Source: Herbiconiux gentiana
GTDB lineage: Bacteria; Actinomycetota; Actinomycetes; Actinomycetales; Microbacteriaceae
Assembly (NCBI RefSeq): GCF_024978135.1
Contig: NZ_JANTEZ010000004.1
Span: 62,001 to 126,000, forward strand
Direction: 5' to 3'
Length of the DNA: 64,000 nucleotides
Shown: piece by piece, positions 16,171-19,687 of the stretch
How the letters are laid out: every line of letters begins with the position of its first letter
How positions within the stretch are numbered: position 1 is the first letter of the stretch
Made by a program: the position numbers and the translations under genes
The notes under the pieces: generated by a model
Told to the model about the DNA's origin: nothing
The model's database searches: none
Seen by the model: only the letters and a program-made list of their open reading frames with translations

Positions 16171-17103
16171 ATGCCCGAACCGACGCCTCTCTCCTCTGCG
16201 GCATCCCCCTCGGCTTCCTCGACTGAGTTCTCCCCTTCGGCCTTCTCGACCGCCGTCGTGTCGTGGTTCGCCGTCGCTGCCCGCGACCTGCCGTGGCGCC
16301 GACCCGGATTCACGGCCTGGGGCACGCTCGTCAGCGAGTTCATGCTGCAGCAGACGCCGGTGGTGCGGGTGGTGCCGCGGCTGGCAGAGTGGCTGGCGCG
16401 CTGGCCCACGCCGGCGTCACTGGCCGCGTCACCCGCGGGGGATGCGGTGCGGGCCTGGCAGTCGCTCGGCTATCCGCGTCGGGCGCTGAACCTGCACGCC
16501 TGTGCGGTGGCGATCACCTCGCGCTTCGGCGGGGAGGTGCCGCGCGACGTGCCGTCGCTGCTGTCGCTGCCCGGGGTGGGTGACTACACCGCGCGGGCGG
16601 TCGCGGTGTTCGCGTACGGCGATCGGCACCCGGTGGTGGACACGAACATCCGCCGCGTGATCGCTCGAGCCGTCGACGGTGCCCCGGATGCGGCCGCCCC
16701 CAACGCCCGCCGCGACCTCCCCGCGATGGCGGCGCTGCTGCCCCCGTCGGACGCCGACGCCGCCCGCTTCAACGCCGGCATGATGGAGCTCGGCGCCCTG
16801 GTCTGCACGGCCCGTGCGCCGCGCTGCTCCTCCTGCCCGGTCGCCGACCTCTGCGCCTGGCGGGCGGCGGCCTACCCCTCCGCCCCCGTCGCCCGCCGGC
16901 CGGTGCAGAAGAAGTACGAGGGCTCGGACCGCCAGGCGCGCGGCATCGTGCTGGGAGTCCTGCGCGCGTCGGACGACCCGGTCCCCCACACCGCCCTCGC
17001 CGAGGCCCTCCCCGACCCCGCGCGCCTCGGCCGCGCCCTCGCCGGCCTCCTGGCCGACGGCCTCCTGGTGACCCCCGCCGCCGATCTCTACGCCCTCCCC
17101 TGA
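16171..17103 (+). CDS. mutY: A/G-specific adenine DNA glycosylase
   Basis: 310 residues. It removes adenine mispaired with 8-oxoguanine. A Ser/Ala-rich N-terminal stretch of ~30 residues precedes the HhH-GPD domain: EFMLQQTPV (catalytic-type Glu), helix-hairpin-helix LPGVGDYTA, VVDTNIRRV (catalytic Asp), and a [4Fe-4S] loop with C-x6-C-x2-C-x5-C spacing (CTARAPRCSSCPVADLC). The ~80 residues after the cluster have no evident NUDIX-like 8-oxoG recognition domain, so it is a short-form MutY. The second half of the gene uses more CCC and CTC codons than the first. Confidence 0.93.
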   Translation: MPEPTPLSSAASPSASSTEFSPSAFSTAVVSWFAVAARDLPWRRPGFTAWGTLVSEFMLQQTPVVRVVPRLAEWLARWPTPASLAASPAGDAVRAWQSLGYPRRALNLHACAVAITSRFGGEVPRDVPSLLSLPGVGDYTARAVAVFAYGDRHPVVDTNIRRVIARAVDGAPDAAAPNARRDLPAMAALLPPSDADAARFNAGMMELGALVCTARAPRCSSCPVADLCAWRAAAYPSAPVARRPVQKKYEGSDRQARGIVLGVLRASDDPVPHTALAEALPDPARLGRALAGLLADGLLVTPAADLYALP

Positions 17104-17207
17104 CCTCTCGTCTCCTGTCGACCAACTCCGACGACCTTCACGGCCCCGTGTCCTCGTGACCCACTCCGACGACCTGCACGCTCTCACCTGACCTCTCGCG
17201 TCTCCTG
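17101..17207. repeat. nested short direct repeats after mutY (pattern B-A-A-B)
   Basis: An 18-bp unit actccgacgacct(t/g)cacg occurs at 17125-17142 and 17163-17180 with one mismatch. A flanking unit tgacctctcg(cg)tctcctg occurs at 17101-17117 and 17189-17207, the second with a two-base insertion. The outer copies bracket the inner ones. The first copy contains the mutY stop codon. Confidence 0.6.
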
Positions 17208-17239
17208 CCGCACTCGCAAGGCGACCCATGCCCCTCGTC

Positions 17240-17296
17240 GGCAAGCGCGGAGCGCGCGGCAGCCACCCGGGTGCTGCCGCGCGCTCCGCGCTTGCC
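17240..17296. repeat. perfect 24-bp inverted repeat with 9-base loop, upstream of the HNH gene
   Basis: Arm 1 at 17240-17263 (ggcaagcgcggagcgcgcgg then cagc) is the exact reverse complement of arm 2 at 17273-17296; the loop is cacccgggt. The stem is extremely GC-rich and no T-run follows on either side, so it is not a typical intrinsic terminator. It lies 62 bases before the HNH endonuclease ATG. Confidence 0.9.
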
Positions 17297-17357
17297 CTCG
17301 ATGATCAGGGCCGGGTCACGAAGTCCAATGTCGGTGGTCTCTGGTTGACTTATCCTC

Positions 17358-18971
17358 ATGAACAATTCGTCGGTCGTCTTCGCCGAGACCCCTGCCTACG
17401 ATGCCCCGCTCATCGACTCGCTTGGTGCTCAGTTCGACGCGGCGATCCAGGATGTCCGAGCCGCCGACGCGGCCATCGCCGCCGCCGAGGCACTGCGCGT
17501 CCGCCGGCTGGCACGCGTGGCCGAACTCTCATCGCTGATGTCCCAGTCCGACGGCAGCGCCGCCACCGCCGCAGGCCGCGAGTGGGCCCGCCGCCGCCTC
17601 GTGACCGAGATCGCCTGCGCGACGAAGCGCAGCGAACGCACGACAGCCCGCCTGATCGACGACAGCGAGCACCTGGTCGGCGCCTTCCCAAAGACGCTCT
17701 CCCGGCTCTCGTCGGGTGCCATCTCCTACGCCCACGCCAAGTCGCTCGTCGCGCACGCCCTGACAATCCCGGCCGAAGCACGAGCCTCGTTCGAGCGCGA
17801 CGTCCTCCCCCACGCCGAGGCACTCCCGGCCCACCGCTTCGACGACCGCGCCCGCCGCCTGCGCGAGCGCCTGCACCCCGAATCGATCATCACCCGCACC
17901 AAAGCGGCACTCGACGAGCGCTACGTCTCGGTCACGCCCGAATGCGACGGAATGGCCACCATCCTCCACCACCTCCCCGCGGTCGACGCCCTGGCCATCG
18001 ACGACCTCATCGACCGCGTCGCACGCGCCGACCGCGCCAACCGCGCGGCCGCCTCCGCCGCTTCCGACGCTGCCCGCGCCGGACACTCCGACGGCCTCGA
18101 TGTCTCTGATGTCCCCGATATCCCCGATGTCCCCGACAACGACACGCGCACCCACGCGCAGCGCAGGTCCGACGCCCTCACCGACCTCATCCTCGCCCGC
18201 CGCGACCGCCCGGGCTTCATGCCGACGGTTCTCATCACAATGGCGGCGACGACCTTCTCAGGATCCGACGACTCCCCCGCCTCCCTCCACGGCTACGGCC
18301 CCATCGACCCCGCCACGGCCCGCCGCCTCGCGCGTCACGCCCCCACCCACCTCCGTGCGTCCACCCCCGCTCCCGACGCCACCTCCCCGTCACCACCCAC
18401 CATCGTGACGCGCCACCGCACCCGCGCCCACATCCACACCGGATCACCGCCCGCAGATCCCCCCATCGACGCCTCGCCACGCCGCGCCACCCGCACGGGC
18501 ACCCCGACCGGCCCCGCGATCATCGAGAGCGACACCACCAACCCGACGACCACGTCACCAGCCTTTGTTCTCGACACGACTGTCCACCCCGAAGCGCCCG
18601 CCGACTCGCGCGACCGCGACCGCGACCGCGAAGCCGAAAACCGCTACAGCGCCTCATCCGTCGTGCGCACCGTGCTCACCCTGCTCGACGAGACCTGCCG
18701 CTTCCCCGGCTGCGGCCGCCGAGCCGACCGCTGCGAGCTCGACCACACCCACGCCTGGAGCGAGGGCGGCCGCACCACCCCCGACAACCTCGCGCACCTC
18801 TGCTCCCGTCACCACCACCTCAAGCACGAGGGCGGCTGGCACGTCACCCCCTCCCACGACGGCACCCGCACCCTCACCTGGACGAGCCCCCGCGGCGCCC
18901 GCTACACGACCCACCCCGAACACCGCGCCCTGGCCGCCCCCAACCCCGACCCCGACCCGCCACCCTTCTAA
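17358..18971 (+). CDS. DUF222 / HNH endonuclease (13E12-repeat-like family)
   Basis: 537 residues. The N-terminal ~250 residues are the helical DUF222 domain seen in the multicopy 13E12 REP proteins of mycobacteria and their actinobacterial relatives. A long Pro/Thr/Ser-rich variable linker follows, with short tandem repeats (four 3-residue Asp-Val/Ile-Pro units near residue 250; an RDRDRDRE run near residue 420). The C-terminal HNH nuclease domain has CRFPGC, CELDHTHAW, GGRTTPDNL and LCSRHHHLKH, giving both zinc ligands and the catalytic His. The start lacks a clear Shine-Dalgarno sequence. Family members are probably mobile or self-propagating, but that is not proven. Its position between mutY and rbfA, with a long inverted repeat upstream, suggests insertion. 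Confidence 0.9.
   Translation: MNNSSVVFAETPAYDAPLIDSLGAQFDAAIQDVRAADAAIAAAEALRVRRLARVAELSSLMSQSDGSAATAAGREWARRRLVTEIACATKRSERTTARLIDDSEHLVGAFPKTLSRLSSGAISYAHAKSLVAHALTIPAEARASFERDVLPHAEALPAHRFDDRARRLRERLHPESIITRTKAALDERYVSVTPECDGMATILHHLPAVDALAIDDLIDRVARADRANRAAASAASDAARAGHSDGLDVSDVPDIPDVPDNDTRTHAQRRSDALTDLILARRDRPGFMPTVLITMAATTFSGSDDSPASLHGYGPIDPATARRLARHAPTHLRASTPAPDATSPSPPTIVTRHRTRAHIHTGSPPADPPIDASPRRATRTGTPTGPAIIESDTTNPTTTSPAFVLDTTVHPEAPADSRDRDRDREAENRYSASSVVRTVLTLLDETCRFPGCGRRADRCELDHTHAWSEGGRTTPDNLAHLCSRHHHLKHEGGWHVTPSHDGTRTLTWTSPRGARYTTHPEHRALAAPNPDPDPPPF
18099..18134 (+). repeat. 9-bp tandem repeat inside the HNH gene (4 units)
   Basis: gatgtctct, gatgtcccc, gatatcccc, gatgtcccc: four in-frame 9-base units coding Asp-Val/Ile-Ser/Pro. 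It is a likely slippage site in the linker between DUF222 and HNH. Confidence 0.8.
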
Positions 18972-19162: not shown

Positions 19163-19597
19163 CTAGTCCTCCTCGATCACCTTCGGCTTCACGTACGGGT
19201 CCTCGTCGCCGGCGTACTGCGCCTTCTTCGCCAGACCCTCCACCGCGGCGTCCCGCGCCCGCGCCTCGGCGAGCAGGTCGTCGAGCACCTTCGCGTTCTC
19301 GGGCAGCGCATCGGCGATGAACTCGAGCGACGGCGTGAGCCGCGCAGTGATGTTCTTGCCGACCTCGCTGCGGAGCATCCCGGTCGCCGACTTCAAAGCA
19401 GCGGCCGAGTCGGCCCGCTCGCGGTCGTCGCCGTACACCGTGTAGAAGATCGACGCGTGCTGCAGGTCACCCGTCACCCGCACATCCGTGATGGTGACGA
19501 AACCGAGCCGGGGATCTTTGATGCCCTTCTCGAGCCGCTTCGCCACGATGACCTTGATTCGGTCCGCCATCTTGGCGGCACGTGCCGGATCAGCCAT
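19163..19597 (-). CDS. rbfA: 30S ribosome-binding factor A
   Basis: 144 residues with the single KH-like RbfA domain. Family landmarks: DPARAAKMADRIKVIVA at the start, DPRLGFVTITDVRVTGDLQHA, then FYTVYGDD and the helix with TPSLEFIAD. It binds 30S precursors during 16S rRNA maturation and cold adaptation. I chose the ATG at 19597 because AGAGGG lies six bases upstream and the protein then begins as family members do. An in-frame ATG two codons earlier, and a GTG much further upstream right after GGAGGAGTG, are less likely. Acidic C-terminal tail. Last gene of the proS-nusA-ylxR-infB-rbfA group. Confidence 0.95.
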   Translation of the reverse strand: MADPARAAKMADRIKVIVAKRLEKGIKDPRLGFVTITDVRVTGDLQHASIFYTVYGDDRERADSAAALKSATGMLRSEVGKNITARLTPSLEFIADALPENAKVLDDLLAEARARDAAVEGLAKKAQYAGDEDPYVKPKVIEED

Positions 19598-19650
19598 GAA
19601 CATCCCTCTTTCTGCCTGTGGCATCTCTGCCGGTGGGACTGGATATGAGA

Positions 19651-19687
19651 GGAGGAGTGATGCGACACCAGGCCGCACCACTCCTCC
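19651..19687. repeat. 9-bp inverted repeat between infB and rbfA
   Basis: ggaggagtg (19651-19659) and cactcctcc (19679-19687) are exact inverted repeats around a 19-base loop. On the transcript one arm is a strong Shine-Dalgarno-like GGAGGAGUG followed directly by GUG, in frame with rbfA. Confidence 0.55.

Follow-up and report, generated by a model that had tools for sequence, protein, structure and literature searches.

Does the DUF222/HNH gene that lies between truB and rbfA in Herbiconiux gentiana, with a hairpin in front of it, belong to an element that moves or spreads on its own account? A preliminary description of the window (the whole 64,000-nt stretch of DNA analysed here) had proposed an undescribed mobile or selfish element, with the inverted repeat as a transposition end or an expression signal. 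Here we consider the gene and its repeat in the window, in the rest of the H. gentiana genome (3.85 Mb, 17 contigs), in its congeners and in other Microbacteriaceae.

The window locus and its gene

The gene order at this locus is truB (-), a 204-aa open reading frame (+) without a Pfam match, an HhH-GPD glycosylase gene (+), the DUF222/HNH gene (+) and rbfA (-) (Table 1). As the HhH-GPD gene and rbfA point towards each other, the unit stands between convergent genes. In seven congeners the HhH-GPD gene lies directly beside rbfA, with 42-88 nt between the tblastn hits, and the 204-aa frame adjoins the HhH-GPD gene in six of the seven congener stretches examined, so that the position of these two genes next to rbfA is the normal arrangement. 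The earlier statement that three genes split rbfA from truB is thus right as to the order, but only the DUF222 gene is extra.

Nor is that gene conserved at this exact site in all relatives. Among the nine other Herbiconiux genomes examined here (of 15 congeners), it is missing in seven and present in two, G009 and G013, again between the HhH-GPD gene and rbfA. The same-site DUF222 protein of G009 is 66.6% identical to that of the window; for the HhH-GPD, rbfA, 204-aa and truB products the identity is 88-92%.

Judged by its Pfam matches, the window gene is a member of the DUF222 / 13E12 repeat family (PF02720; E 1.5e-14, 54.5 bits against a gathering score of 24.4) with a C-terminal HNH domain (E 2.7e-6, 27.9 bits against a gathering score of 21.4). 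These are the only Pfam families over cut-off for the protein, and a recognised transposase, as in a classical insertion sequence, was not found in it by Pfam. The leader between palindrome and start codon presumably holds the gene's own promoter. To the left of the repeat (17063-17198), a 48-nt sequence occurs twice, with 81% identity and at a distance of 88 nt, across the 3' end of the HhH-GPD gene.

The inverted repeat is exact over 24 bp, as first described, its arms complementary without a mismatch across a 9-nt loop, and it is the longest among the 40 close inverted repeats (>=14 nt, <=60 nt apart) of the window. The left arm contains a small palindrome of its own, GCGC/GCGC around a 3-nt centre. 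Folding of the repeat region yields -92.1 kcal/mol against a shuffle mean of -67.5 (z -6.1). An RNA reading of the hairpin was set aside: nothing in Rfam exceeded its gathering score there, and the top match, Atu_L6 (29 bits against a gathering score of 100), is regarded as chance.

Table 1. Features of the DUF222/HNH locus, in positions of the window.
Feature	Positions	Strand	Basis or detail
HhH-GPD (MutY/endonuclease III type) gene, left neighbour, pointing to the unit	16171..17103	+	Pfam
Imperfect extension of the inverted repeat: 38-nt arms, 84% complementary	17226..17310	.	matches the longer arm consensus ACCCGGCCATGACCATCGAGGGCAAGC...
Left arm of the inverted repeat	17240..17263	+	GGCAA-GCGC-GGA-GCGC-GCGGCAGC
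9-nt loop separating the arms	17264..17272	.	direct reading of the sequence
Right arm, perfect complement of the left arm	17273..17296	-	direct reading of the sequence
Short 5' leader, palindrome to start codon	17311..17357	+	position; comparison with other type B copies
DUF222/HNH gene, type B (palindrome 5' of gene), 537 aa	17358..18971	+	ORF and Pfam
Residues 39-175: predicted fold matching ParB/Noc DNA-binding domains	17472..17882	+	structure model
Residues 431-526: HNH nuclease domain	18648..18935	+	Pfam, fold match, residues
rbfA, right neighbour, pointing to the unit	19163..19681	-	adjoins the HhH-GPD gene in 7 congeners

A palindromic arm and its association with DUF222 genes

The repeat is not unique in the genome. 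There are ten DUF222 matches in H. gentiana, and reading of their flanks found a hairpin at every one (ten hairpins in total, 10/10 beside a DUF222/HNH gene). A genome-wide search with the arm pattern, allowing <=3 mismatches, returned 15 matches against 0 for a mirrored control, and an arm sequence model (R1), built on 19 of the 20 own-genome arms, recovered 22 arms at E<=0.01, namely the 20 in the ten hairpins and two lone ones.

The conserved unit is a single arm, with the core GGCAAGCNC-3/4 nt-GNGCGCGGCAGC, rather than the long hairpin, because the 3-4-nt centres of paired arms agree in only 10 of 37 rows and mismatch in 27 (two of the rows, L236 and L324, are apparently one locus). Perfection over 24 bp is a property of the window copy. 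In all ten own copies both arms lie together on one side of the gene and do not flank it, and two types can be told apart by that side. Type A copies (n=7, L002-L008) have the hairpin on the 3' side, some 40 nt after the stop codon, or later in the case of the frameshifted L008; type B copies (L001, L009 and the window copy) have it on the 5' side. Type A and type B proteins are only about 20% identical, and they have the same arms nonetheless. Two details of single copies may be recorded here: the HNH part of L008 is out of frame and its hairpin is still perfect, and the 36-37-nt inter-arm loop of L007 looks, by eye, inverted relative to that of L002-L005.

Arm matches at E<=0.01 occur in 14 of the 15 congeners (G015 has one weak match only). 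Among the 129 arms listed for congeners, 109 lie <=1.5 kb from a listed DUF222 domain, and a finer search placed 12 of the other 20 with DUF222 genes or remnants, which brings the count to 121. The remaining eight comprise two (L104) at a site occupied in a sister species, two at contig ends and four lone arms, all at one place in a conserved gene block. Free-standing palindromes had been considered as REP-like elements, a candidate largely rejected given the 12 of 20 distant arms that lie with DUF222 genes or remnants. Lone single arms without DUF222 (L115-L120 and, in the own genome, C1:314108 and C4:31102) stand in one conserved gene block that several Herbiconiux genomes share, where they follow a gene end; seven open reading frames tested at these loci, including those of 443-444 aa, gave no transposase in Pfam and one ROK match.

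All DUF222 genes carry arms in G009 (12/12) and G013 (13/13); by R1 the counts are 1 of 9 listed in G010, 0 of 6 in G006 and 0 of 3 in G011. The finer search also found arms with DUF222 at the ends of three G006 contigs, L111 and L112.

In the wider family, an arm match at E<=0.001 is present in 13 of 120 Microbacteriaceae genomes. Five of these have more than one such match; three are Herbiconiux (g1) and two belong to g8, a genus whose arms are like those of named Subtercola. A scan of named genomes used exact arm matches, not tied to DUF222, and yielded at least 112 stretches, with many rows from the same genomes; among the matches listed, 67 are in Microbacteriaceae, nearly all in Herbiconiux and Subtercola, and 54 elsewhere. 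Among these listed matches, 54 of the 67 in Microbacteriaceae lie near DUF222 (<=1.5 kb) against 0 of the 54 elsewhere, and the inner base pair is complementary in 67/67 (C:G 39, G:C 28) against 17/54. In addition, of the 13 listed Microbacteriaceae matches far from DUF222, five (L223, L253, L254, L305 and L311) show DUF222 fragments on finer search. Two genomes of other genera, G016 and G021, hold 12-13 DUF222 genes without the arm palindrome; G016 has two weak arm hits (E 0.005 and 0.012), and three of its loci have single 14-17-bp stems. When 20 DUF222 loci of five genera were scanned for hairpins, the 12 loci outside g8 shared none, and shared inverted 12-mers, present in the Herbiconiux and g8 sets, were absent from six G016 and three G021 copies.

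The Subtercola-type genes offer a separate view of the arm, since in g8 and named Subtercola loci the 5' arm lies within the coding region, encoding AAAPxGLA. An inverted arm follows 112-167 nt past the stop codon in six of the eight copies of G022, a g8 genome, lies inside a longer open frame in one, and was not found in the eighth. Codons were compared over 15 Subtercola-type genes, the eight of G022 and seven from named loci. Six degenerate codons of the arm are identical in 15/15 genes, and a seventh in 14/14 of those that keep the residue (L185 differs); the background, 130 other conserved columns, has a mean codon identity of 0.67, with 4.6% of columns fully identical. The middle codon, which is the arm centre, varies. 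With its codons fixed at synonymous positions and its centre free, selection on the arm thus appears to act on the nucleic acid. A second motif in these loci (L182-L189), GCATCCAGAACC, also occurs in inverted form, at one position within the gene and one beyond the 3' end, and 7/8 copies have it together with its reverse complement.

Compact units, empty sites and homogenisation

The A-type set comprises 26 copies from three genomes (the own genome, G009 and G013). Their units begin at a common point, about 40-45 nt upstream of the start codon, and finish soon after the second arm; beyond these ends, copies resemble each other only at sites that two genomes have in common. Both ends recur in 12 of 14 further rows from other congeners (a count in which L236 and L324 are apparently one locus), and L103 and L325 have a diverged left end; in L103 and L108 the arms flank the gene, one on each side. 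In g8 the units likewise have a sharp left end, some 40 nt upstream of the start codon, and most G022 copies have their right end at the palindrome, as type A does. The copies of G016 are about equally compact and are dispersed without a palindrome, so that the palindrome is not needed for dispersal.

Copies sit at unrelated, mostly convergent intergenic sites. Among the A copies, 20/26 lie between convergent genes against 11/53 neighbouring pairs in the window, counts that come from a crude GC3 gene call and are non-independent because of shared sites. With joined flanks as query against the congeners, those of L002 match without interruption in both G009 and G013, and those of L004 do so in seven congeners (G009, G013, G008, G012, G011, G014 and G005). 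For L005 the match is unbroken in G013 and falls into two adjacent pieces in G009. The sites of L006 and L008 are filled in G009 and G013 and empty elsewhere, for example in G015 and G004 for L006 and in G003 and G008 for L008. Sites filled in G009 or G013 are likewise filled or empty between species, and decayed copies exist as well, L104 and L107 being remnants at sites filled in the other of these two genomes. The flanking genes align across the empty sites of L002, L004, L005, L084, L087, L088, L093 and L094, and the intergenic DNA does not; as the intergenic DNA of relatives is too diverged, we claim no exact junction or target duplication. By eye, some A copies show CGAG close to each end, which we do not take for a target duplication.

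Near-identical copies at contig ends were considered as recent jumps and rejected. In H. oxytropis (L108-L110; G003:C31, C7 and C29) two contig ends share an identical 63-nt left end of the unit after unrelated flanks, and two Subtercola vilae contigs share 127 nt. A search of the G003 genome gave bodies of copies that are 90-95% identical, and the shared contig ends may therefore be assembly overlaps.

How copies at shared sites relate was examined with sites named by flank comparison before tree building. In a tree of 26 elements all seven own copies form one clade (100/100), and two of these seven sit at sites that are also filled in G009 and G013. Eight same-site groups at six sites were tested: six were rejected (p 9.5e-4 to 5e-53), one was not (p 0.08; one flank shared) and one is a true clade. 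L006 is closer to own-genome than to same-site copies over most of the element, except for the second 100 nt; between G009 and G013 the windowed identity contrast is weak, and the case there is made by the tree tests. Copies are thus closer within a genome than at the same site in a sister species, and homogenisation between copies is strongly supported by these sequence comparisons.

Within-genome identity of full-length copies is 81.9-88.6% in the own genome, 81.2-90.1% in G009 and 77.3-89.2% in G013; it is 85-90% in G004, reaches 94% at most for full-length copies in G003 and 94.9% at most in G016, and no pair of copies >95% identical was seen in these six genomes. Within genomes, dN/dS is 0.13-0.16 (20 of 26 A genes used), which indicates purifying selection, and the N-terminus of A-type genes diverges faster, at 0.39 over the first 90 codons against 0.13.

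These results bear unevenly on the preliminary description. Its reading of the repeat as a transposition end or expression signal finds no support, as no pair of copies above about 95% identity was seen, no target duplication could be made out in the diverged intergenic DNA, and the position of the palindrome varies, from the 5' or the 3' side of the gene to its interior. The broader idea of an undescribed mobile or selfish element fits the dispersed copies and empty sites; no recent jump was seen in the genomes compared.

What the unit may be

The structure models of the L002 protein (mean pLDDT 77.4) and the window protein (75.5) have no Foldseek match at E<=0.001. In VIA-align, ranks 1-10 for the window model are Noc/ParB DNA-binding domains (Z to 9.2), and the L002 model finds Noc/ParB at 12 of its first 13 ranks (Z to 10.6, rmsd 2.2 A), with 105/105 residues against Noc 6y93 at Z 10.2 and KorB at rank 17. 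The rmsd of the ParB/Noc matches is mostly 2.2-2.9 A over about 100 residues, values that helical domains can reach by chance. The predicted fold of residues ~24-175 thus resembles ParB, Noc and KorB; in contrast to these proteins, the match is to the DNA-binding domain only, a C-terminal HNH nuclease is present, and the sequence similarity is not significant (Spo0J at E 0.1 only, and no Pfam ParB hit). The C-terminal part matches HNH domains of the McrA and IscB type in fold and residues, and the HNH motif of the window protein is intact (DH462-463, N477, HH485-486); it differs in that the rest of IscB or McrA is unmatched and no Rfam family passes its gathering score at the locus. Each unit thus probably encodes an enzyme that cuts DNA, one domain of which may bind palindromes.

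Free-standing HNH homing endonuclease genes are single intergenic nuclease genes that are present or absent between relatives and undergo gene conversion. The units described here resemble them as lone intergenic nuclease genes with gene conversion and with filled and empty orthologous sites, the window site being empty in 7/9 genomes and others likewise. They differ in having about ten dispersed copies per chromosome and a ParB-like predicted fold instead of typical homing DNA-binding modules. It is tempting to see in them a homing-like selfish nuclease family with the palindromes as its candidate binding or cutting sites, an interpretation that we hold tentatively, at slightly less than an even chance. 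The unit is a single DUF222/HNH gene with a short leader, to which the Herbiconiux and Subtercola copies add copies of one palindromic motif. On this interpretation DUF222 would recognise the palindromic arms through a helix-turn-helix domain of the ParB/Noc type, and the HNH domain would nick or cut at or near the arm sites. Repair from another copy would, on the time scale of species, place the unit at new intergenic positions and homogenise existing copies, so that the cut would drive both spread and homogenisation. Against the homing-like interpretation, near-identical copies were not seen, gene conversion between 1.5-kb repeats can occur without any nuclease, and there are armless DUF222 genes in congeners and palindrome-free dispersed units in other genera. 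The bolder claim, that this is a new class of mobile unit in which a ParB-like domain joined to HNH recognises the unit's own arms, be they 5', 3' or internal, spreads the unit into convergent intergenic sites and homogenises its copies across the genome, is doubtful, if far from fanciful.

Other known systems share some of these features. REP elements with RAYT (REP-associated tyrosine transposase) genes are short palindromes, often in inverted pairs, that go with one gene family. Here too short palindromes are tied to one gene family, but by Pfam the gene is DUF222-HNH and not a Y1 HUH transposase, and free-standing palindromes are few (2/22 arms in the genome). The 13E12/REP13E12 repeats of mycobacteria have the same DUF222-HNH protein family, multicopy and dispersed, and REP13E12 loci are tied to HNH/DUF222 in the DIVE paper (PMC10589994). 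Gene conversion is a further likeness: REP13E12 loci are hotspots, among the most gene-converted in M. tuberculosis, with 87 events, second in number only to PE/PPE (2026 preprint, PMC13061034). They differ in that the passages considered here from both papers do not mention palindromic arms (PMC10589994, PMC13061034). Among the titles and abstract openings listed for searches of the open-access literature, we found no description of such a palindrome-bearing DUF222/HNH unit.

The palindrome and the nuclease may instead serve the cell. A useful host nuclease family, acting for example against foreign DNA or in chromosome structure, could have been duplicated by illegitimate recombination and homogenised by RecA, with the palindrome as a docking or regulatory site and not one where the protein cuts. 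The purifying selection and the stability of copies at 77-95% identity agree with such a role, as do the predicted ParB/Noc-like fold, which suggests binding, and a phage and plasmid search that returned just one partial phage record and five distant plasmid records. However, the decayed copies at sister-occupied sites and the large number of empty sites suggest that the gene can be dispensed with, no PADLOC match at E 0.1 was obtained for the window and L002 proteins, and the type A palindrome lies 3' of the gene, far from the promoter. We consider a host nuclease family unlikely, though a serious contender.

More improbable is that these are non-autonomous units whose movement depends in trans on an unrelated transposase, one with the conserved left end and the palindrome as its recognition sites, and that the HNH protein is cargo. 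The sharp left end in two genera, the right end at the palindrome in type A and most G022 copies, and the identical left end at the two H. oxytropis contig ends would all suit such movement. Yet the unit has no second gene, the open reading frames tested at the lone-arm loci have no transposase match in Pfam, and no target duplication could be made out in intergenic DNA this diverged.

There is little to recommend the view of the palindrome as chiefly a transcription terminator or insulator that separates convergent genes and travels with the DUF222/HNH gene. The hairpin is certainly very stable, most A copies lie between convergent genes on the crude call given above, and the lone arms, too, follow a gene end. 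Direct inspection, however, finds no T-run after the window hairpin, as the preliminary description had stated; type B copies, the window copy among them, have the palindrome on the 5' side of the gene; in Subtercola-type genes the arm is inside the coding region with its synonymous sites fixed; and the arm centres mismatch in most pairs. Finally, a chance repeat beside an ordinary gene, in whose favour there is only that the DUF222/HNH gene family is common in actinobacteria, is refuted by the mirrored control and the hairpins at all ten DUF222 genes, and its likelihood is close to nil.

Many actinobacteria, mycobacteria among them, have DUF222/13E12 genes in multiple copies, and the literature that we found offers neither a function nor a route of spreading for them. 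If true, a self-spreading ParB-like/HNH unit would explain why these genes are multicopy in actinobacteria. With a DNA site, a predicted fold, a nuclease, filled and empty sites and homogenisation to work from, the question of whether they are selfish nucleases becomes directly testable.
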